DNA of 64,000 bases from Oxalobacteraceae bacterium (lineage in GTDB: Bacteria > Pseudomonadota > Gammaproteobacteria > Burkholderiales > Burkholderiaceae_D): NCBI GenBank assembly GCA_013284265.1, contig JABTBR010000005.1:1-64000 (forward strand). The letters are read 5' to 3'. The notes below the pieces were generated by a model, which saw only the letters and a list, made by a program, of their open reading frames with translations, ran no database searches and was not told the origin of the DNA. Position numbers and translations under genes: made by a program. Positions 51,554 to 64,000 of this stretch are shown piece after piece; position 1 is the first letter of the stretch; each line of letters begins with the position of its first letter.

Positions 51554-54500
51554 ATGAAAAACGATCGCAAGCAGTCTGCGCCGCTGCACCACATGGCAGC
51601 CCTTTCCCTTGGCGGCCAGAGCGCCCCCTTCCCCTTGCGGCCCAAGCTGCTCGCGGTGGTGGTGGCCACCTGCTTCAACGCGGCCCAGGCCAATCCGGTA
51701 GCGCCCCAGGTGGTGCACGGACAGGCCACCTTCAATCAGCAGGGCAGCCTGTTCTCGATCACGAACACCCCGAACACCATCATCGACTGGCAAAGTTTTT
51801 CGATCAAGTCCGGCGAGATCACCCGCTTCATCCAGCAAAACGGCGACAGCCGCGTACTGAACCGCATCCTCGGCCAGGACCCCAGCCAGATCCTGGGGGC
51901 GCTGCAATCGAACGGCAAGGTGTTCCTGATCAATCCGAATGGCGTGCTGTTCGGTAAAGGTTCCCAGGTCGATGTGAACGGCCTGGTCGCGTCCAGCCTG
52001 GCGATGTCGAATTCCGATTTCCTGGCGGGCAAGAATAATTTCAGCGGCGCCGGACCCGGCAAGGTGGTCAACCAGGGCAGCATCCGCACGCCGTCCGGCG
52101 GCCAGGTCTATCTGCTGGCCGCCAGCGTGGAAAACAGCGGCCTGATCACGGCGCCCAATGGCGATGTGGTGCTGGCCGCCGGCCAGCGCGTGGAACTGCT
52201 CGACTCGGCCAATCCCGAGGTGCGGGTGGTGGTGTCGGCGCCGGCCGACCAGGCCCTGAACCTGGGCCAGGTGGTGGCCCAGGGCGGACGGGTCGGCATC
52301 TATGGCGCGTTGCTGAACCAGCGCGGCCGGGTCAGCGCCGACAGCGCCGTCGTCGGCGAGCAGGGCCAGATCATCTTGAAAGCCAGCGGCACAGCCATGC
52401 TCGAGGCGGGCAGCGTCACCAGCGCCACCGGCGCCGGCAAGGGCGGCAGCATCCAGGTAGTGGGCGAGCAGGTGGGCCTGACCGGCAATGCGCGGCTCGA
52501 CGCCAGCGGCGAACAGGGCGGCGGCAGCGTGCTGGTCGGGGGCGACTACCAGGGCGGCGGCAGCCTGCCGCGCGCACGCGCCACCTATGTGGGCAAGGAA
52601 GTGATGATCGTCGCCGATGCCGGCCAGCAGGGCGACGGCGGCACGGTGGTGGTCTGGGGCGACGAGGCCAGCCGCATGTACGGCGGCATCTCGGCCCGCG
52701 GCGGCCTGCTCGGCGGCGATGGCGGGCTGGTGGAAACCTCGGGCCACTATCTGGATGTAAACGGCGCGCGCGTGAGCACGGTGGCGGCCAGGGGCAAGCG
52801 CGGCAACTGGCTGCTCGATCCTCTGAATATCGAGGTGGCCGACGTCAGCAACGCCTACACCCTCAGCGACGCGGCGCTGTTTGCCAGCGGCCCGCAGAGC
52901 GACGTCACCCAGCTCGACGCGAGCCTGATCTCCAACGCCAGCAGCGACGTGACGCTGCAGGCGAAAAATGACATCACCTTCTCCGAGCAGGTCAACATCA
53001 GCGCCAGCGGTGTCAAGCTGACCGCGCGCGCCGGCCACGACATCATCGTCGACAGCAGCATCACCACCAGCAATGGCGCGGTGACCTTGACGGCCAACGA
53101 CGCGGGCGGCGTGGCCAACAACACCGGCATCGTGCACATCACCTCGAACGGCGCGATCACCACCAACGACGCCAAGCTGAGCATGACGGGCACCGGCGTC
53201 ACCATCGACGGCAGCATCGCGCTGGGCACCGGGGCGCTGGCGGTGACGGCCGCCAAGGCGGGGGGCAGCATCCTGCTCTCGAGCAGCGGGGCCATTTCCG
53301 GCAGCGGCCAGACCGGCGCGCTTCCGCTGTTCTCCTTCGTCGGCGACAATATCGCCTTCGACACCGTGGTCAGTTCCGGCGGCGTGTCGGGCGACACCAC
53401 GGTCCAGCTGGCGCCGTACACGGCCAGCCGGGTGATCGACCTGGGCGGCGCCACCAATGGCAGGCTCAATCTGTCGACCACCACGCTCAACCACGTCGAT
53501 ACCTTGTCCCTGATCGTCGGCAACAGCAGCAACACGGGCGGCATCGTCCAGAGCAGCACGCTGAGCCCCAGCCAGGTCGGCAATCTCTACCTCGATAGCA
53601 GCGGCAATATCACGCTCAGCAAGAGTATCAACCTGGTCGGCGAGGGCGCCGCCTTCGGCGCCACCATCCATGGCAGCGGCACGCTGAAAATCGACAGCGG
53701 CAATATCGAGATTCCGGCCAGCGTGACGGCGCAAACCATCAGCCTGCGCACCGACAACCTGACGCTGAACGGCGGGCTGAACGCCGGCACCGTGATGATC
53801 GATGCCAATACCAATAGCCGAGCCATCAATATCGGCGCCGGCGCCTCGGGCGGGCTGGCCATCAGCGCGTCCGGACTGATCGCCGGCAACAGCGACAATC
53901 TCTACATCGGCACCCGCTACGACTATACGGGCGCCGTCAGCGTCGTGTCCGGCGGGCTCGATCTGGCGAGTTCCAGCCAGGCCGGCAGCGACAGCGTCTG
54001 CCTGGGCGGCGCCAGCGTGGCGATCAACGGTCCCCTGAAGGTGGGCGATCTGCTCTACCTGAAGCCGAGCGGCGCGGTGAGCCAGTCCAGCACCGGCATC
54101 ATCACGGCCGACCATGTGTCGGCCGGCGGCACGACGGTGACCCTGTTGTCCAATAACCAGGTCGGTTCGGTCTCCGGCCTGAGCACCGGCGCCTTCCAGT
54201 TCAAGTCGGCGACCGCCCTCGATGTGGGCGCGATCAGCGGCGAGAACGGTATCCACAGCAGCAACAGCATCAAGCTGGTGTCGCCGAATCTGGACCAGGA
54301 TTCGAACGGGCACCTGGTGGCGCCCAAGCTGATCCTGAGCGATTCCGGTTCGGTGAGCTTGACGGCGTCGCCGTCGAACCAGGTCGACGCGCTGGTGGCC
54401 GAGTCGGTCGGCCCCCTGCATTACAAGAACTTCGGCGCGCTGACCCTGGGCGCCGACGGCAAGGGCATCAGCCTGGACAATATCGGCGACACCATTGTCA

Positions 54501-57094
54501 GCATCCAGTCCAGCGGCCTGCTCACGGTGGCGCAGCCAGTCAGCAGCGGCACGGCGAACCTGAATCTGTTCGCACCGTCGATCAAGGTCGGCAATAGCGG
54601 CTCGCCGAGTTCGGCCAAAATCAGCGGTGGCACCGTCTCGCTGGAGGCGAGCGGCTCCGGCATCACGCTCGACAGCGGCGCACTGGTCACCGGCGCGACC
54701 GTCATGCTGAGCGCGAACAGTATGTCGCTGGCCAGCGGCAGCGAGATCAAGGCCGTGAAACCGGTCGGCGACGTCTCCTCCTTCGTGCCCTCGGTGATCC
54801 TGGCTCCGTATTCGAGCGGTAGCAGCATCACCTTGGGCGTGGGTGCGATCGATGGCGAGGGCGGCCTGGGGTTGACCGATACGGAACTGAAAACCATTAC
54901 CGCCGGCCAGTTGACGATCAATAATGTCGCCGGCAGCGCGGGCATCTATGTCAGCGGCGCGCTCAATCTGAGCAGCAGCAACAAGCTCAGCGTGGGTCTG
55001 CAATTGCTCAGCCACGGTACCATCACGGTGGCCGCACCGATCACCACGCCGACCGCGCTGGTGCTGGGAACGACCGGGGCGATCCACAACAACTCGCTGA
55101 TTACCGCGAAAAACATCAATTTGCTGGCCGACGATATCGTGCAGGACACCGGGGCCGGCCACGGCCTGGAGGCGGGCAATAGCGGCAGCCTGTTCATCAG
55201 CCCCTACACCAGCAGTATGAGCATTGAACTAGGCTCGAGCTCGCCGTCCGACAGCGGCGTGCTGCGCTTTTCGACGGCCGCGCTGGACACCATGCACGCC
55301 GGCTACTACAACTTCAGCGCCGCCGGGATCGGCGTGCTCGACGTGCTGAGCAAACCGAATAGCGTGATGGACTTCAACGCCGACGGCGCGCTCAGCATTG
55401 GGGCGGCCCTGACGGCCAAGGGCCTGCGCTTCAAGAGCGATACCCTGACCATCGGCGATACCGTCACGGCCGATATCGTCGGCATCTCCACCTTCACCGA
55501 CGGGCGCAAGATCACGGTGGGCAGCGCCACCTGCGACGCCTCGCCCTGCCTGGCGATCGCCGAGCTGGCGTCCATCGCCGCGCCGACCATCGGCATCGGC
55601 AATTCGGACCCCACCCATGGTTCGGGCGAGCTCAGCGTAGTCGGCATTACTTCCGCGCTGGCGGCGCCGACGGACCGCAATGCGCTCACCACCCGGATCG
55701 GCCTGATGAGCGCGAGCGACATCACCCAGTCCGGCATCATCGATGTGCATGAGCTGGGCGTCGAGTCCGGCAGCGGCGTCACGCTCAACAGTGCGAACAA
55801 TGTCGCCTTCCTGGCGGGCAAACAAACCGGTGGCGGCGATTTCAGTTTTACCAATGCGTCCAATCTGGCCATCGGCAAGCTGGTCGGGCTAGACTTCGCC
55901 GGCAATCTACTGTACGAGATCGATGGCCTGTACTCGGCCAATAACGTGACGCTGAATGTCGCCGGCGCGCTGACCAAGGCCTCCGGCGCCATCCCCGGCG
56001 GCAAGATCAACGCCGCCCATCTGACGCTGAACACCACCGGCGGCGTCGGCACGGCCAGCCTGGGGCTCGATACCACGGTCAGCGAAATGACCATCGAGAA
56101 CAGCGCCGGCAGTGGCAGTAGCGCGCCCATCCATATCACCAACACCACCAATCTGTCGCACCAGGTCTCCGGCCATGCCAACACCAATGTGGTCTACAAG
56201 ATCTGGCAGACCGATACGGGCGGCGGCAATGCCGGCGCGGTCAAGGTCATCAACAAGGGCGGCATGCTGATCAGCGACACCCTGGGCAGTTCGGGCGGCG
56301 TCAAGACCGGCGCCGGCGGCATCACGCTGGAAACCCACAGCCCGCTGTCCATCGATGGCGAGGTCAGCACCGTCTCCGGTCCGATCAATCTGTCCGCCGG
56401 CCCCGGCGGCAGCAACGATGTGCTGACCTTTGGCGGCACGGCCAGCGTCACCTCGGTCAGCGGTAACATCAGCCTGGTCGCCGGCAGCTCGATCGTTGGC
56501 TTCAGCCCATCGATCGTCAACAGCAGTTCGGGCTCGGTTGGCCAGCAGCAGGGCGCCAATAACAGCCCATCGCCAAGCCCAAGCCCGACGCCTACCCCGA
56601 CGCCAACGCCAACGCCAACGCCGACACCAACCCCGGTGCCGACGCCGGTGCCTGATCCATCGCCGACTCCGATTCCAACACCGGTACCGACACCGGTGCC
56701 AACGCCGGTGCCAACCCCGGTTCCGACGCCGACACCAACGCCGACACCAACGCCGACGCCGCCGCCATCGGCCGACATCTGTGCGATCGCACCGAATTCG
56801 ACGCTGTGCCAGGTGCTGTCGCCGCCGACGGCCAGCGAGCCGAACAAGCCGGTCCAGCAGGCCAGCAACGAGATCATCAAGACCGTCACGGCCAGCGTGC
56901 CCAAGTACGATGCGCCTTCGACCTTCCTGGAGAGCAAAAAGGATGGAACGCAGAGCGGCAGCGGCGGCGCCTCGGCCAATTCGAGCACGCCGGACGACAG
57001 CAAGACCGACAAGAAATCGACGACTAAAGAGTTGGCCTCCAACGAGAAGAGTGAGCTGAAAAATGAACCTGTCAAAAAACTCTATTGCAACTAA
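51554..57094 (+). CDS. Filamentous haemagglutinin-type exoprotein (TpsA)
   Basis: The 1846-residue protein has an extended signal peptide region (to about residue 47, [17 protein letters not shown]) and a TPS secretion domain. That domain includes [20 protein letters not shown] and [21 protein letters not shown] very long Ser/Gly/Thr-rich beta-helical shaft follows, then a Pro/Thr/Val repeat stretch (about residues 1670-1738). A small tail holds the Cys pair [10 protein letters not shown] and ends in YCN. No known toxin or peptidase domain is seen. It is likely a cell-surface adhesin or matrix protein held by TpsB or by its Cys-containing tail (inference). Its 3' end overlaps the fecR-like gene by 32 bp. 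Confidence 0.92.
56565..56769 (+). repeat. Degenerate 6-bp tandem repeats encoding Pro-Thr/Pro-Val
   Basis: Units of the type CC(A/G)ACG and CCGGTG repeat for about 200 bp and encode alternating Pro and Thr or Val. It is a rigid extended linker. Six-base steps keep the frame, so the linker could vary in length between strains. Confidence 0.8.
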
Positions 57095-57929
57095 GGCTGG
57101 CGGACTGCTGGCGGCGCTGGCCCTGCTGGGCGCCGCTTCCCTGGCCAGTGCGGCCCAGGTGGCCGGCACGATTGTGCAGTTGAGCGGACCCTTGATGGCC
57201 AAGAAGGGCGACGGGGCGGTCAAGATCCTGTCGCTCAAGTCCGAGGTGGAAAGCGGCGACACCCTGGTGACGGAGAAGAACACCTATGCCATGGTGAAAT
57301 TCATCGACAACAGCGAGATCACGCTCAAGCCGGCCAGCTCGCTGAAGATCGATAACTTCGCCTTCGACGCGGGCAAGCCCGGCGAGGACAGCGCCTCCTT
57401 CAGCCTGGTCAAGGGGGGCCTGCGCTCGGTGACCGGCCTGCTGGGCAAGCGCAGCAAGGAAAAATTCGAGATGAAGACGCCGACGGCCACCATCGGCATA
57501 CGCGGCACCACCTTCCTGGCCGAAATCGTGCCCGAGACGGCCGAAGCGGTGGCGGCGCGCCTGGCTTACCAGCTGGCCAGCACCGCCGCGCTCGACCCGG
57601 CCATGGGCGGCTTGCCGGTGGCGCCTATCCGGCCCCTGCAACTGGCCCAGAACCTGCCCAAGCCTGTCGGCGCCGGTCCGACCCTGGCGCCCGGCCTGTA
57701 TGTGCATGTGATCGATGGGCTGATTCAGTTGAGCAATGGCGGCGGTACCCAGCAGTTCGCGCCTGGCCAGTTCGGCTTTACCCCCTCGTTCAAGCAAGTG
57801 CCGCAGTTGCTGCCGAGCAATCCAGGCATGCTGCTTACACTGCCGCAGGCCTTTGTGCCCAGCAGTGCCGGCAGCGCCGGCGGCAGCGGCGGCGACAAAC
57901 CCAAAACAGTCGATTGCGAAGTACGCTGA
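57063..57929 (+). CDS. FecR-domain periplasmic protein
   Basis: The 288-residue protein has a signal peptide ([20 protein letters not shown]) and a FecR domain with [40 protein letters not shown] and [21 protein letters not shown] Pro/Leu-rich C-terminal part of unknown role follows. It has no membrane segment besides the signal, unlike FecR anti-sigma regulators. The start lies inside the last 32 bases of tpsA in another frame, so translation is coupled. It may help surface presentation of TpsA or sense its state; this is inference. Confidence 0.85.
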
Positions 57930-58054: not shown

Positions 58055-60436
58055 ATGACATCGACCTCTTCCGAAACTTCCTCCGCAGCCGCCTCCTTGT
58101 CCTTCAAGGTCGAGGGCATGAGCTGCGCCTCCTGTTCCGGCCGGGTCGAGCGGGTGCTGGCCGCCTTGCCCGGCGTGAGCCATGCCAGCGTCAACCTCGC
58201 CACCGACATGGCGCGGGTGGAGTCGAGCGTGCCGCTCGATTTCGCCGCCGTGCGCAGCGCCATCGACAAGGCCGGCTTCGTGGCCGTGCCGCCCGCGCCA
58301 GCCATTGCCGACGCGGCGGCTACCGTTCCAGCTGGCGCCGCCAGCGGCCAGGCCGCGACGGGGGCGGGCGGCAATGGCGGCTGGCAGGTGCTGCTGGCGC
58401 TGGCCTTGTCGCTGCCCTTGCTCGCGCCGATGCTGCTGGAACTGGGCGGCGTGCATGCGATGCTCGATGGCCGCCTGCAATGGCTGCTGGCCACGCCCGT
58501 GCAATTCTGGCTGGGCGCGCGCTTTTACCGCGCCGGCTGGAAGGCCGCGCTTGCCGGCACCGGCAATATGGATCTGCTGGTGGCGCTGGGCACCAGCGCG
58601 GCCTATGGCCTGAGCGTCTATCAATTGCTGGTCGCCGGCGCCGCTACTGCGCCGGCGGCGAATCCGATGGCCGCCGCCATGGCGCCGCTGTATTTCGAAG
58701 CCTCCGCCGTGGTCATCACGCTGGTATTGCTGGGTAAATGGCTGGAAGCGCGCGCCAAGCGCCAGACCACGGCCGCGATCCGCGCCCTGCAGCAGTTGCG
58801 GCCGGAAACGGCCATCGTGCGCCGCGCCGGCATCGACGCCAGCATGCCGCTTGCCAGCGTCGTGGTAGGCGATCTGGTGGTGGTACGGCCGGGCGAGCGC
58901 GTCGCCGTCGATGGCGTCATCGTCGAAGGCGCCAGCCATCTGGATGAAGCCCTGATCACCGGCGAGAGCCTGCCGGTGGCGCGCCATCCTGGCGACCGGG
59001 TCACGGGCGGCGCCATCAACGGCGAAGGCTTGCTGCTGCTGCGTACCAGCGCCGTCGGCGCCGAAACCACGCTGGCCCGCATCGTCCGGCTGGTGGAGGA
59101 TGCACAGGCCGGCAAGGCGCCGATCCAGCAGCTGGTCGACAAAGTGAGCGCCGTGTTCGTGCCAGTGGTGCTGGCGCTGGCGCTCATCACGCTGGCGGGA
59201 TGGCTGCTGGCGGGCGCCGCGGCCAATACGGCCATCATGCACGCCGTGGCCGTGCTGGTGATCGCCTGCCCGTGCGCGCTGGGCCTGGCCACACCGGCCG
59301 CGCTGATGGCCGGCACCGGCGTGGCCGCGCGCCACGGCATTCTGATCAAGGACGCCAGCGCGCTGGAAGTGGCGCAGCAGGTGAACACGGTGGTGTTCGA
59401 TAAAACCGGCACGCTGACCGAAGGCAAGCCGCTGCTGGCCGCCGCGCTGCCCTGGCGGATCGACGCGGCACGCCTGCTGCGCCTGGCCGCCAGCCTGCAG
59501 CGCGGCAGCGAGCATGCGCTGGCGCGCGCCGTGCTGGCCGCCAGCGCAGAACGCCAGCTGGGCGACGCCGGTGTGCCGCTGGCGCTGACTGCGCTGCCCG
59601 GTCGCGGCATCGCGGGCAGCGTCGATGGCCAGCGGCTGCTGCTGGGCAGCACGCGGCTGATGGAAGAGCAGGGCGTGGCACTGGCGCCGCTGGCCAGTCA
59701 GGCCGCTGAGCTGGCGGCGCAAGGCTTGACGGTTTCCTGGCTGGCCGGCGTGGCGGGCGCCGATGCCGCTGGCGCCGCCGCCAGCGCCACATCCGCCGCC
59801 AATGCCGGCGGCGCCGCGCCAGCCGGTGGCGCCACGGCGCCGCAGCTGCTTGGCCTGCTGGCCTTTGGTGACCGCATCAGGCCGCAGGCGGCCGGCGCCG
59901 TGCAGCGCCTGCATCGGCGCGGCATCGCCACGGTCTTGCTGACGGGCGATAACGCCGGCAGCGCGCAGGCCGTCGCCGCGGCGCTCGGCGTGGGCACGGT
60001 CATGGCCGGCATGCTGCCGGCCGATAAGGCCGCCTACATCGGCCGCTTGCAGGCGGGCGGCCAGCGCGTGGCGATGGTGGGCGACGGCGTCAACGATGCC
60101 CCGGCGCTGGCTGCCGCCGACATCGGCATCGCCATGGGCGGCGGCACCGACGTGGCCATGCACGCGGCCGGCATCACGCTGATGCGCGGCGATCCGGGGC
60201 TGGTGGCCGACGCCATCGACATTTCCCGCCGCACCCGCAACAAGATACGCCAGAACCTGTTCTGGGCCATGATCTACAACCTGGCCGGCATCCCGCTGGC
60301 CGCCTTCGGCCTGCTCAATCCCATGGTGGCCGGCGCCGCGATGGCGCTCAGTTCCGTCAGCGTGATCGGCAACGCGCTGCTGCTGTCGCGCTGGCGCGGG
60401 CAGGCCGGCCAGCGCCCCGTACAAGGAAAGCCATGA
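58055..60436 (+). CDS. copA: Copper-exporting P1B-type ATPase
   Basis: CopA pumps Cu(I) out of the cytoplasm using ATP. The 793-residue protein has one N-terminal metal-binding domain (EGMSCASC, residues 20-27) and eight membrane segments. It has the TGES loop ([10 protein letters not shown]), the transport-site CPC (C405, C407), the phosphorylated Asp449 in DKTGTLTEG, and the hinge [12 protein letters not shown]. The usual His-Pro motif (SEHPL) reads SEHAL here, a change at a normally conserved Pro. An Ala-rich insertion lies before [16 protein letters not shown]. It overlaps cueR by 4 bp and is preceded by a CueR operator. Confidence 0.94.
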
Positions 60437-60819
60437 ATATCGGACAAGCCGCGGCGGCCAGCGGCGTATCGGCCAAGATGATCCGCTACTACGAGAGCAT
60501 CGCCCTGATCCCGCCCGGCCGGCGCAGCGACGCCGGCTACCGCATCTATGGCGACAGCGATCTGCATGTGCTGCGCTTCGTCAAGCGTGCCCGCAATCTG
60601 GGCTTTTCGCTGGAGCAGATCCGCGGCCTGCTGTCGCTGTGGCAGGACAAGGACCGCGCCAGCGCCGACGTCAAAGCCATCGCGCTGGACCACGTGGCCG
60701 AACTGAACGCGCGCATCGCCGAACTGTCCGAGATGCGCGACACCTTGCAATCGCTGGCCAGCTGCTGCCACGGCGACGCGCGGCCCGACTGCCCCATTTT
60801 GCGTACGCTGTCGGCCTGA
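60433..60819 (+). CDS. cueR: Copper-responsive MerR-family regulator
   Basis: CueR activates copA when it binds Cu(I). The 128-residue protein has the MerR helix-turn-helix ([20 protein letters not shown]), the dimerisation helix, and the metal loop with C112 and C120 ([10 protein letters not shown]). Ser77 is present, which marks monovalent-metal sensors. Its ATG overlaps the copA stop (ATGA), so it is made together with the pump and feeds back through the operator upstream of copA. Confidence 0.93.
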
Positions 60820-60913
60820 ACACCAGTGTGGCGGCGGCTTTGCAGTCCATTGCAAACAACAAGCCAGTCGCTGCCTGAAGCGACATTGCTAGACCGGCAA
60901 GCTTGAATCAACG

Positions 60914-60919
60914 TATAAT
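60914..60919 (+). promoter_or_regulatory. -10 element for the cobalamin riboswitch transcript
   Basis: A perfect TATAAT lies just before the riboswitch. A good -35 at 16-18 bp is not seen. A GTCGCT-GCCTGA-AGCGAC hairpin (60867-60884) lies upstream and may close the copA-cueR transcript. Confidence 0.5.
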
Positions 60920-60920
60920 C

Positions 60921-61125
60921 GCCCGGTTTTGGTGCCCGCAAGCCTGTCCAGGCTTGCAGTTAAACGGGAAACAGGGAGTTGGCGGACACGCCGGCCAACC
61001 TGTGCTGCCCCCGCAACGGTAAACAAGCGTCGTCTCGTACGACTGGCCGCCCCTCAATACCACTGTGCGTCTGCATGGGAAGGTGAGGCGGTCCGACTTG
61101 CTAGCCCGGATACCGGCCAGAACAG
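60921..61125 (+). ncRNA. Cobalamin riboswitch
   Basis: The plus strand shows the conserved elements of an adenosylcobalamin-type riboswitch in order. They are a P2 hairpin (GCAAGCCTG / CAGGCTTGC, 60938-60957), TTAAACGGGAA, the B12 box core GCTGCCCCCGCAACGGTAA (60993-61011), CCACTGTG, GGGAAGGTGAG, and the closing AGCCCGGATACCGGCC (61103-61118). It should reduce expression of the downstream genes when B12 is plentiful. About 300 bases separate it from the next start codon. Confidence 0.92.
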
Positions 61126-61421
61126 GTGGAAGTGTGCGGCCGGGTGGGCGCGCGACACGAAGGTAGGGGCCATGCGCCCGTGCCGCCCTGTCGCCATTGC
61201 CAGTCCAGTCCCGCATTTCTGTTCAACCCGCTCACGGGGAGGTGAGTGGTTTGCTGTCTGTCGCCCCGAATTTCTCATGCAAGCATCGACCCCGTCACGG
61301 CAACGCCGACTGGCGGCCGCGCCCTTGGCGCGCGCCGCAGGCCTTTGCTCGTCCGCCGGGTTCGCATCCCGCTGTTCATCTCGTTTTTCACTCCGCTGCT
61401 CATCTCTCCCAGGATTCCGCC
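61126..61421 (+). other. Long leader between riboswitch and first gene
   Basis: No convincing gene is present in these 296 bases. A hairpin CCGCTCAC / GTGAGTGG encloses the Shine-Dalgarno-like GGGGAG at about 61228-61249. It could be part of the expression platform or the remnant of a lost gene. An open frame through this region lacks protein-like sequence. Confidence 0.4.
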
Positions 61422-62027
61422 ATGTTTAATCTGCCCGACGCGTCCATCCACGCCCTCGAAACCCTGCTGTACTCCATCTCCACCGTACTCTACCTGCCGG
61501 TGCTGCTGGGCATTGCCGCGCTGGTGCTGCATATGCTGCTCTGCCTCGGCATCTATGCCGCCGAATGGCTGGAACGCCGCCGCGGCGTGCGCGTGCTGGT
61601 GGCCACCGCGCGGCGCGACATGGCGGCCGTGCTGACGGCCAGCGATGGCGAGCCCGGTCCTGGCCTGGATGCGCGCCTGGAGCGCGTGGTGCAGCGCGCC
61701 GACGCGGCCGGCGTGCGCCGCCTGGACGCGGTGCGCTTCGTGGTGCGGGTCGGCCCGGCCCTTGGCCTGATGGGTACCCTGATCCCGATGGGGATTTCGC
61801 TGGCCGGCCTGGCCCAGGGCAATCTGCCCAAGATGGCCGAGAGCATGACCACCGCCTTCACCGCCACCGTGGTCGGCCTGGCCTGCAGCGTCACCGCCTA
61901 TGTATTGGGCCTGGCGCGCGAGCACTGGCTGCGCGCCGACCTGACCGATATTTCCTACGCCGCCGAAACGCTGCTGGCCACGCACGAGCACAAGGGCGCG
62001 CCGCATCTGGTGCGCGCGGGAGCCTGA
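61422..62027 (+). CDS. MotA/TolQ/ExbB-family proton channel protein
   Basis: The 201-residue protein has three membrane segments (TVLYLPVLLGIAALVLHMLL; VVRVGPALGLMGTLIPMGIS; MTTAFTATVVGLACSVTAYV). It shows the ExbB/TolQ hallmark GLMGTLIPMG and Thr residues in the last helix. Such proteins form proton-driven motors with an ExbD/MotB partner. The start MFNLPDASIH has AGGA upstream. It lies behind the cobalamin riboswitch and 1 bp before the DUF2149 gene, which suggests one operon for B12-related work. Confidence 0.88.
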   Translation: MFNLPDASIHALETLLYSISTVLYLPVLLGIAALVLHMLLCLGIYAAEWLERRRGVRVLVATARRDMAAVLTASDGEPGPGLDARLERVVQRADAAGVRRLDAVRFVVRVGPALGLMGTLIPMGISLAGLAQGNLPKMAESMTTAFTATVVGLACSVTAYVLGLAREHWLRADLTDISYAAETLLATHEHKGAPHLVRAGA

Positions 62028-62028
62028 G

Positions 62029-62361
62029 ATGCGCTTTCTGAACCGCCACCGCTACAGCCGCATCGGCGAGCATGACGACCCGCTGGCCGGCGTCGCCAAT
62101 CTGTTCGACGCCAGCATCGTCTTTATCGTCGCCATGATGCTGGCCCTGTTCTCGGCCTGGAACATGATGGACCTGCTCGATCCGAATTCGGAAGTCACCA
62201 TCGCCAAGAAAAGCGCCGACGGCCACGTCGAGGTGCTGACCAAGAAGGGCGCCGAGATCAAGGTCAGCCGCGTCAGCGACAAGCCCCTGTCCGGCTCCGG
62301 CAAGCGCCTGGGCACGGCCTATCAGCTCCCCGATGGAAAGGTCGTCTATGTTCCCGAATAA
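62029..62361 (+). CDS. DUF2149 family membrane protein, probable ExbD-like partner
   Basis: The 110-residue protein has a short basic cytoplasmic N-terminus, one membrane helix with an Asp at its start (ANLFDASIVFIVAMMLALFS, Asp27), and a small periplasmic domain. This is the layout of ExbD, TolR and MotB, whose intramembrane Asp carries protons. The family is DUF2149, function unproven. It starts 1 bp after the ExbB-like gene and overlaps the cobN-like gene by 14 bp. Confidence 0.82.
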   Translation: MRFLNRHRYSRIGEHDDPLAGVANLFDASIVFIVAMMLALFSAWNMMDLLDPNSEVTIAKKSADGHVEVLTKKGAEIKVSRVSDKPLSGSGKRLGTAYQLPDGKVVYVPE

Positions 62362-64000
62362 TCTAGGCGCCGGCTTGCGTACCTTGCTGCGCGCGGCTTT
62401 GCTGTTCTCTTGTACGCTGGGCCTGACGGGCGGCGCCCACGCGGCCCCGCGCACCCTGGCCCTGTTGCTGGGCGACGTGGAATCCCGGCCCGCCGTGCTG
62501 GCCGTGCGCGGCTTGCAGGGCGAGTTGAAAGCGCTGGATGTCTCGGTGCGCATCATTCCCGCCAACGGCATGACGCCGGCCGACCGCGCCGCCCTGGCCA
62601 GTGCCGATGTGGCGCTGGTCAATGCCAAGGGCCGCCAGGCCATGCAGGCCATCGTGCCCGAGCTGCAAACGCTGCAGCGCGCGCGCCGGCCGGTGTTCGC
62701 CGTCGGCGGTGCGATCGACGACGGTCTGCGCGAACTGGGCCTGCGCGACGATAAGACCATCCAGTCCTACCACCGCGAAGGCGGCGTGGAAAACATGGGC
62801 AATCTGCTGCGCCATGTGCTGCGCAACAGCTTCGGCGCCAAGCTGACGGCCGCGCCGGTGCATGCGATGCCCGAGGTGGGCCTGTTCGACGTCGCGGCCA
62901 ACCGCAGCAGCACCAGCTTCGCCGAGTTCAAGAATGGCTATGCCAATTACAAGGCTGGCGCTCCCTGGGTGGGCGTGATGTTCTACCGCGCCAGCCTGGT
63001 CGCGGGTCAGACGCTGCCGCTGGCGGCCATCGTCAAGAAGCTGGAGACCAGCGGCTATAACGTGATGCCGGTGTTCGGCTATCCCTACGATGTGCCGCTG
63101 CGCTATTTCCTCGACGACGCCGGCAAGGGTAGGGTCGAGGTCATCGTCGCACTGGGCATGAAGGTGGGCGGTACCTCGTCCACCGGCGCGATCCTGGAGC
63201 AGATCGGCGTGCCCGCCATCAATGCGATCACCCTGAGCCAGCAAACCAAGGCGCAATGGCAGGAATCGAAGATCGGCCTGGACCTGATCGAACGTACCTG
63301 GCAGCTGGCCGGCGCCGAGATCGCGGGCCTGATCCAGCCCACCGTGGTGGCCAGCCGTGAGCGCGTCAGCGATGCGCAGACCGGCCTGGCCTATGTGGAA
63401 GAGCAGCCGATCGCCGAGCGTATCGAGCGGCTGGACCAGCGCATCTCCGCCTGGATGGCGCTGCGCAAGAAGGCCAATAGCGACAAGCAGGTCGCCATGA
63501 TCTACTACAACTACCCGCACGGTTCCGAGACCATAGGCGCGGCCTATCTGAACGTGCTGCCGGAGAGCCTGTGGCAGATCGCCCAGCGCCTGAAGGGCGA
63601 AGGCTATCGCCTCGACGACATGCCGGCCGACAAGCGCGCCTTGCAGGAGCAGATCCAGCTGTGGGGGAATTACCCGGGCAAATCCAAGGGCGACTACATG
63701 GCGGGCCTGAAGTACCTGGCCAACAGCGGCCAGGCCCTGCTGGTGCCGCTGGCCGACTACCAGCGCTGGTATGCCACCTTGGCGCCGTCGCTGCGCGCCG
63801 CCATCGAAAAATCCTGGGGCAAGCCGGAGAACGCGCCGGTACTGTGGAAGAACGCGCGCGGCGAAGCGCAGTTCGTGTTCCCCGCGCGCCGCTACGGCAA
63901 TGTGCTGATGGCGCCGCAGCCGGGCCGTGCCTGGGAACAGAACCTGGAGAAGCTGCACAATGAAGTGAGCATGCCGCCCAGCCACGAGTACATCGCCTTC
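62348..64000 (+). CDS. CobN-like chelatase subunit with signal peptide (3' end outside window)
   Basis: The visible 551 residues start with a signal peptide (LLRAALLFSCTLGLTGGAHA) and then CobN/magnesium-chelatase H-type sequence. That includes GVMFYRASLVAGQTLPLAAI, VMPVFGYPYDVPLRYFLDDA, VALGMKVGGTSSTGAILEQI, MIYYNYPHGSETIGAAYLNV, and VLMAPQPGRAWEQN to PPSHEYIAF. Cytoplasmic CobN inserts cobalt with CobS and CobT. Here a signal peptide and ExbB/DUF2149 neighbours point to an envelope location. Bacteroidetes HmuS, a CobN relative, works beside similar motor genes in haem use. The reaction here is unknown: insertion, removal or remodelling of a tetrapyrrole metal. Confidence 0.88.
   Translation, partial: MFPNNLGAGLRTLLRAALLFSCTLGLTGGAHAAPRTLALLLGDVESRPAVLAVRGLQGELKALDVSVRIIPANGMTPADRAALASADVALVNAKGRQAMQAIVPELQTLQRARRPVFAVGGAIDDGLRELGLRDDKTIQSYHREGGVENMGNLLRHVLRNSFGAKLTAAPVHAMPEVGLFDVAANRSSTSFAEFKNGYANYKAGAPWVGVMFYRASLVAGQTLPLAAIVKKLETSGYNVMPVFGYPYDVPLRYFLDDAGKGRVEVIVALGMKVGGTSSTGAILEQIGVPAINAITLSQQTKAQWQESKIGLDLIERTWQLAGAEIAGLIQPTVVASRERVSDAQTGLAYVEEQPIAERIERLDQRISAWMALRKKANSDKQVAMIYYNYPHGSETIGAAYLNVLPESLWQIAQRLKGEGYRLDDMPADKRALQEQIQLWGNYPGKSKGDYMAGLKYLANSGQALLVPLADYQRWYATLAPSLRAAIEKSWGKPENAPVLWKNARGEAQFVFPARRYGNVLMAPQPGRAWEQNLEKLHNEVSMPPSHEYIAF

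Follow-up and report, generated by a model that had tools for sequence, protein, structure and literature searches.

In B12 and chlorophyll synthesis, the class I chelatases depend on AAA+ ATPases. In Bacteroidota, a published haem dechelatase operon combines the class I chelatase large subunit HmuS with HmuU (ExbB) and HmuV (DUF2149) (PDB 9d26; PMC12583661, PMC10434189), and purified HmuS alone turns haem to protoporphyrin IX (PMC12583661). BtuS1 and BtuS2 of Bacteroides fragilis have been described as a 'third type' of CobN relative (PMC6460266, citing Rodionov 2003), predicted to be exported and membrane-attached and standing apart from the cobalt and magnesium chelatases. For the cobN-exbB-exbD-tonB cluster on plasmid pSZ77 of Geobacter lovleyi, a distinct, unknown role was proposed (PMC3403914). 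A speculation that Chlorobaculum tepidum inserts cobalt into acquired cobalamin is repeated in PMC8620254, and PMC10846266 is another partial precedent. Here we describe a locus in a 64,000-nucleotide stretch of an Oxalobacteraceae bacterium (contig JABTBR010000005.1 of assembly GCA_013284265.1, positions 1 to 64,000; hereafter the window), in which a cobalamin riboswitch is followed by genes for an ExbB-like protein, a DUF2149 protein and a CobN-like protein. The reading that we prefer, to which we give a probability of roughly 45%, is that the locus is a BtuS-type, B12-repressed cassette for the acquisition of tetrapyrroles, whose periplasmic class I chelatase would serve corrinoids or cobalt and would possibly be worked by the ExbB-DUF2149 pair. 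No paper on a CobN-ExbB-DUF2149 system with a B12 riboswitch turned up in a search of the open-licence literature, and Rodionov 2003 may already list these genes as B12-regulated.

The riboswitch and the three genes all lie on the plus strand, with the genes nearly gapless and the aptamer ending 286 bases before the start of the exbB-like gene (Table 1). The aptamer match, well over the RF00174 gathering score of 31.5 bits, is the sole above-threshold match within the window. This arrangement had been reported in a preliminary description of the window, and the RF00174 match (89 bits) and Pfam matches over their cut-offs bore it out; the proposed B12-type regulation likewise agrees with the RF00174 match upstream of the operon. 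That description had expected the end of the CobN frame and further genes beyond position 64,000, and both were found on the contig continuation. The CobN-like frame stops at 66400, giving a full length of 1355 residues, and a 680-residue TonB-dependent receptor (66397-68439) starts inside its stop codon. A second, siderophore-type receptor begins 51 bases after the first. The first receptor scored against siderophore and haem receptor models, under all cut-offs, and the second was over the cut-off of the siderophore model. No match to TonB was found among the nine genes scanned in the operon and downstream.

The N-terminus of the CobN-like protein reads by eye as a signal peptide (...LLFSCTLGLTGGAHA-AP), and a C-terminal helix reaches a hydropathy of 1.83 at residue 1324, over the cut of 1.8. 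Both features speak against a cytoplasmic location; export to the cell envelope and attachment to the membrane are probable. The preliminary description had called the signal peptide clear; the by-eye reading and the C-terminal helix agree with export, but the N-terminal hydropathy peak, at 1.33, lies under the cut. C-termini exceeded this cut in 95 of 105 CobN proteins and N-terminal peaks did so in 64 of 105, the window protein's not included. With its CobN domain, its predicted export and membrane attachment, and its place outside CobNST, the protein appears to be of the BtuS type. In contrast to the window locus, BtuS1 and BtuS2 have been studied for haem iron, and the main text of PMC6460266 has no occurrence of riboswitch, ExbB, TolQ or DUF2149. 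Similarly, the pSZ77 cluster also has CobN by TonB machinery near cobalamin genes without CobS/CobT, whereas DUF2149 and riboswitch do not occur in the main text of PMC3403914.

A tree of 107 CobN rows was built by a quick search that gave long-branch warnings; it holds neither Bacteroides HmuS nor B. fragilis BtuS1/BtuS2, and it leaves aside L031, whose active-site His is gone, L064 as a duplicate of L019, L067 as one of L017, the 2024-residue L128 frame and the short L096 (L and G numbers denote loci and genomes). No HmuS locus is in the tree because a DUF2149 search of 247 genomes from the phylum of G536, the Chitinophaga genome of L080, found none, despite published hmu operons with DUF2149 in that phylum. 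The window protein was placed in clade A (83 rows, SH-like approximate likelihood ratio test support 100), and the haem-linked proteins formed a separate clade (14 rows, support 100). Six B12-context proteins, termed group b, stood next to classical CobN with a support of 97, flagged as long branches meeting. The CobN residue counts given below omit L031, L060 and the second CobN of G369 and include the duplicates L064 and L067; L077 had no frame long enough.

Like HmuS, the window protein is a class I chelatase large subunit, apparently exported and membrane-held, that is encoded beside ExbB, DUF2149 and a TonB-dependent receptor, and the kinship with the hmu cassette proposed in the preliminary description holds in that the trio is the same as hmuS-hmuU-hmuV (PMC10434189). 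The superfamily catalytic His is kept (His538 of HmuS, His575 of the window protein, within HIGTHG; motif H-F-G-(T/A)-H-G), as it is in all 86 clade-A, all 14 haem-clade and all 6 group-b rows; the first His of the HxGxHG-type motif is Ser in 8 of the 86 clade-A rows. However, the hmu operon is iron-regulated whereas the window cassette lies behind a B12 riboswitch, and the family marks of HmuS are missing. Its motif LSLDHxxEFMGG, which contains His1209 and Glu1212, is replaced by LDNDDFFQYLGG, with Asp1044 and Gln1047 at these two positions, and Met79 and His254 correspond to Lys99 and Leu (by-eye count on the alignment). The Met-rich insertion of HmuS, which separates two aligned blocks by about 200 residues (699 to 904), is absent, the 51-residue segment of the window protein at that site having no Met. 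The identification of the window protein as HmuS proper was therefore rejected. Classical CobN acting with CobS/CobT (PDB 9uk9, 7c6o) shares the fold family, the HxGxHG motif and the DxDDxxQ stretch, but it is cytoplasmic and driven by ATP through CobST. The window protein reads as exported, its genome has no CobT, and it scores under the NCBIfam CobN cut-offs (TIGR02257, 607 against 822.05 bits; PRK05989.2-2, 807.7 against 1248 bits); classical CobN was rejected on its predicted export and the missing CobT.

Three residues before HmuS His1209, where HmuS has Ser, the window protein has Asp1041. This position is Asp in 86/86 clade-A, 6/6 group-b and 3/3 classical CobN rows, and Thr or Ser in 14/14 haem-clade rows (Ser in HmuS, Thr in ChlH); Asp1041 and the DxDDxxQ stretch are common to the cobaltochelatases of solved structure and the three classical CobN rows. 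Among the 26 loci found by DUF2149 (below), Asp was present in 11 of the 13 in B12 context and Thr or Ser in 12 of the 13 others, the exceptions being L034, L035 and the degenerate L031. Asp as opposed to Thr or Ser at this position may mark a corrin as opposed to a porphyrin substrate. A further motif, [VIL]xG[YFQ]x[ML], stands before the transmembrane helix of CobN (VSGFEMQ in the window) in 72/86 clade-A and 8/14 haem-clade rows, with 0/6 in group b, 0/3 in classical CobN and a shuffle mean below 1 per set; it is possibly a docking site.

The host genome contains four B12 riboswitches. One heads a de novo cluster of CbiE, CbiX-CbiC, CbiD, CbiF, CbiH-CbiJ and a CobW-like gene, in which the CbiX domains were confirmed by domain match; another precedes a BtuB-like receptor (426 bits, under its cut-off) followed by genes read by eye as BtuCD, CobO, CbiA and CbiB. 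CobT (PF06213) had no match across the host genome, and the single match to CobS (TIGR01650), on another contig, scored 20.4 bits against a cut-off of 558.55, in line with the lack of these partners noted in the preliminary description. The window gene encodes the only CobN found in this genome; G089 and G491 encode a classical CobN in addition to the exported CobN-like protein. Judged by gene content, cobalt insertion for de novo B12 is covered by CbiX in the host. Given this separate pathway and the lack of CobT, the window CobN would therefore be dispensable for ordinary cobalt insertion, and a role as the cell's de novo B12 cobaltochelatase was rejected on the CbiX and Cbi genes behind a separate B12 riboswitch.

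DUF2149 was searched for in 116 genomes of the family and 398 of the phylum Pseudomonadota, the host genome being counted in both. The results showed that DUF2149 is patchy (over the cut-off in 8/116 and 17/398 genomes, respectively; five matches under the cut-off stand outside the locus counts) and that each of the 26 over-cut-off loci has a CobN match no more than 2.5 kb away. The ExbB-DUF2149-CobN trio is thus conserved as a unit, and the co-occurrence anticipated in the preliminary description was found. By their gene maps, 13 of the 26 loci are tied to a B12 riboswitch or cob genes, and 11 of these hold an above-threshold riboswitch upstream on the same strand; that of L038 (26.9 bits) is under threshold, and that of L019 is some 11 kb upstream within the same cob operon. 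The other 13 loci have no riboswitch upstream, L022 having one after the cassette. Since a B12 riboswitch occurs somewhere in 24/24 genomes of these loci, the contrast between the loci is one of adjacency, not of presence. In this second group, 5 of 8 receptors tested were over haem or haemoglobin receptor cut-offs, and 4 of the 13 loci have a ChaN-like gene, a reading that Pfam bore out in both cases tested. G081 carries one haem-receptor locus and one B12 locus, and G480 a B12-context locus and a haem-clade locus (L029) whose receptor is under the haem cut-offs. As separate observations, L018 (G016, C16:126995-127171) has an 81-residue CobN-like frame just before the riboswitch that looks like a duplicate remnant, L042 (G369:C92) has a second, divergent CobN-like protein (1329 residues, reading as exported) beside classical CobN, and L031 (G307) has a CobN-like protein without the HxGTHG motif beside genes reading as molybdenum hydroxylase.

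A wider set of named loci comprised the best 80 of at least 583 relatives, from at least 593 stretches. Among the matches listed, the closest named relatives were Duganella, Rugamonas, Massilia and other Oxalobacteraceae, and clade A reached Nitrospirota, Nitrospinota, Thermodesulfobacteriota, Verrucomicrobiota, Planctomycetota and Bacteroidota. Of the 45 named loci in which CobN was flanked by 4 kb or more on each side, 44 had ExbB and DUF2149 somewhere in the locus. An Infernal cmscan covered 42 of the 80 loci, all non-Oxalobacteraceae; 31 of these have a same-strand RF00174 match upstream, about 1.7 to 8.7 kb before CobN (9/10, 7/8, 7/11, 2/7 and 6/6 loci per scan batch). For the Oxalobacteraceae-like loci, mapped riboswitches end 0.95-1.08 kb before CobN in 14/17, that of L064 lies further up in its cob operon, and L060 is too short. 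These 14 positions are mapped coordinates without an Infernal rescan, from a mapping of 49 genomes in which a simple motif check was too strict (4/49 loci passed), so that coordinates alone were taken from it; some mapped coordinates are false, e.g. L070 8672-8877, where Infernal gives no match. Seven loci (L088, L089, L092, L094, L108, L116 and L117), of anammox-type Planctomycetota, have tandem cobalamin riboswitches, at least two, upstream of the cassette.

The neighbours within the 80 named loci include CbiK-like genes in 16 (three on the opposite strand, one a fragment), the predicted transporter DUF2162 in 26 and BtuF-like genes in 20. The BtuF-like proteins have the length of a BtuF-CbiZ fusion in 17/80, and the fusion was confirmed by Pfam in the two tested, L090 and L024. 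In L024, L090 and L105, CbiZ is fused to BtuF or stands alone with a signal-like N-terminus (by eye); BtuF-fused or signal-bearing CbiZ suggests periplasmic corrinoid remodelling.

The ExbB-DUF2149 pair resembles ExbB-ExbD, TolQ-TolR and MotA-MotB in joining an ExbB family member to a partner with a single helix, near whose head an Asp is invariant. Thr119 is invariant in 87/87 cassette ExbB rows, and Pro18, Asn24 and Asp27 of DUF2149 in 86/86, near the head of its predicted membrane helix; the invariant Asp would suit a proton motor. An AlphaFold2 model of DUF2149 (mean predicted local distance difference test score 64.8) has a helix at 18-50 and five strands, a low-confidence prediction of one membrane helix followed by a small strand domain. 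Unlike the partners in the known motors, DUF2149 has no significant ExbD profile match and its outer domain is predicted, at low confidence, as strands only; a DUF2149 profile search of PDB sequences gave two hits, neither of them ExbD. ExbB and DUF2149 might instead only energise the TonB-dependent receptor and be unrelated to the action of CobN, as a figure in PMC12583661 draws HmuU/HmuV, and a receptor was recognised by profile in 38 of 44 well-flanked trio loci. This somewhat doubtful alternative has to face the lack of TonB among the nine scanned genes, the separate canonical ExbD encoded in 11 of 65 DUF2149 loci and the 6/44 trio loci with no recognised receptor in reach. These separate ExbD genes and receptor-less trios, together with a DUF2149-CobN gene distance below 100 bases in 43/65 loci, favour, but do not prove, a motor that serves CobN more than TonB. 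The most specific form of this idea, in which ExbB-DUF2149 would be a motor run by protons and devoted to a periplasmic class I chelatase, an envelope counterpart of ATP-driven CobST/ChlID that in clade A would act on corrinoids under B12 control and exchange or recover cobalt outside the cytoplasm, is put forward tentatively and is rather unlikely to hold in full.

In the cassette reading that we prefer, low B12 would let the riboswitch permit expression of the operon, and a corrinoid or another tetrapyrrole with cobalt would enter the periplasm through the TonB-dependent receptor. There the exported CobN-like protein, held at the inner membrane by its C-terminal helix, would bind the tetrapyrrole in the class I chelatase cleft and change its central metal. 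The dedicated ExbB-DUF2149 pair would draw on the proton gradient to power this step mechanically, taking over the role of the ATP-driven partners CobST/ChlID. We lean slightly towards metal removal, cobalt being released in the way that HmuS frees iron, rather than towards the insertion of cobalt into metal-poor corrinoids. Insertion, in which the protein would load imported metal-free or wrongly metalated corrinoids and make them usable, is fairly unlikely; Asp1041 and DxDDxxQ in common with the cobaltochelatases, the corrinoid salvage enzyme CbiZ in some of the same operons and the speculation on Chlorobaculum tepidum (PMC8620254) speak for it, but the periplasmic cobalt supply would be unexplained and the characterised trio relative, HmuS, removes metal. 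To our knowledge, moreover, metal-free corrinoids are not common outside cells. The BtuF-like genes noted above would also suit a protein that merely takes the corrinoid at the outer membrane receptor and passes it to BtuF with its metal unchanged; since pure binding would not obviously require the catalytic His that all 86 clade-A rows keep, we regard this as distinctly unlikely. That the cassette serves haem or iron under incidental B12 control, like the Bacteroides hmu operon, is highly improbable. The trio in common with hmu, the haem receptors adjoining sister loci and the siderophore- and haem-model scores of the two receptors downstream, of which only the second is over a (siderophore) cut-off, are what it can draw on; on the other side are the missing HmuS marks and the setting of most clade-A and all six group-b loci amid B12 riboswitches and cob genes (the L038 riboswitch being under threshold).

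Several points weigh against the preferred reading. Because the host genome, by its genes, makes B12 de novo, the need for a cobalt-handling step is hard to see, and we know of no enzyme that removes cobalt from a corrinoid. The motor may not drive the chemistry, because HmuS acts when purified alone, and an hhalign comparison of DUF2149 with ExbD gave a probability of 2%, not significant, though the Asp residues align. In 11 of the 42 scanned relatives there is no riboswitch in the available DNA, including five Bacteroidota loci with ample flanks and some short contigs. L034 and L035 lie among cob genes, yet have the haem-clade motif and placement. Asp1041 follows the clades, so that few independent events back it, and one of the two patterns by which the named loci were fetched covers the Asp1041 motif.

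Table 1. Features of the riboswitch operon and the matches on which they rest
Feature	Position	Strand	Evidence
Sigma-70-like promoter match, overlapping the first bases of the aptamer match	60890-60919	+	Consensus scan 10/12, consensus match only
Cobalamin riboswitch aptamer RF00174	60913-61135	+	89 bits, E 1.1e-20, full model 1-189
Terminator-like hairpin with T-rich tail, between aptamer and exbB	61228-61259 (stem 61228-61249)	+	Pattern match only
ExbB/TolQ/MotA-like proton channel protein, 201 residues	61422-62027	+	PF01618, 41.5 bits (cut-off 22.9)
DUF2149 protein, 110 residues	62029-62361	+	PF09919, 104.8 bits (cut-off 27.1)
CobN-like class I chelatase large subunit	62333-64000, on to 66400 beyond the window	+	PF02514, 983 bits

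The promoter consensus scan found one site against a shuffle mean of 0.1, and the pattern scan found three terminator-like sites in the stretch on both strands against a shuffle mean of 0.5. The hairpin between aptamer and exbB is a possible expression platform of the riboswitch. Upstream of the operon, 58055-60436 and 60433-60819 read by eye as a heavy-metal P-type ATPase and a MerR-type regulator, and a like pair also precedes the operon in the same-genus genome G089 (L017). Further up, again by eye, 51554-57094 encodes an 1846-residue filamentous-haemagglutinin-like protein with a long Ser/Thr-Pro repeat tail, and 57063-57929 a 288-residue FecR-like exported protein that shortly overlaps it.

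Taken together, the earlier interpretation of this DNA is partly supported. The cassette is real, widespread and little studied, and parts of it were noted before in the work on HmuS, BtuS and Geobacter lovleyi; the different way of tetrapyrrole handling proposed at the outset keeps the conserved trio in its favour, but the idea is not wholly new, given the HmuS operon, the CobN/TonB cluster of Geobacter lovleyi and BtuS. The Asp versus Thr/Ser position is the first candidate for a specificity determinant, and G081, which has both the haem-linked and the B12-linked lineage, provides a ready comparison of porphyrin and corrin specificity. Should corrinoids be the substrate of the cassette, B12 salvage would gain a metal-handling step, or the cell a new cobalt source. 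A proton-powered envelope chelatase, if real, would be a second energy solution for the class I chelatase family and would explain the occurrence of the gene trio in several phyla.

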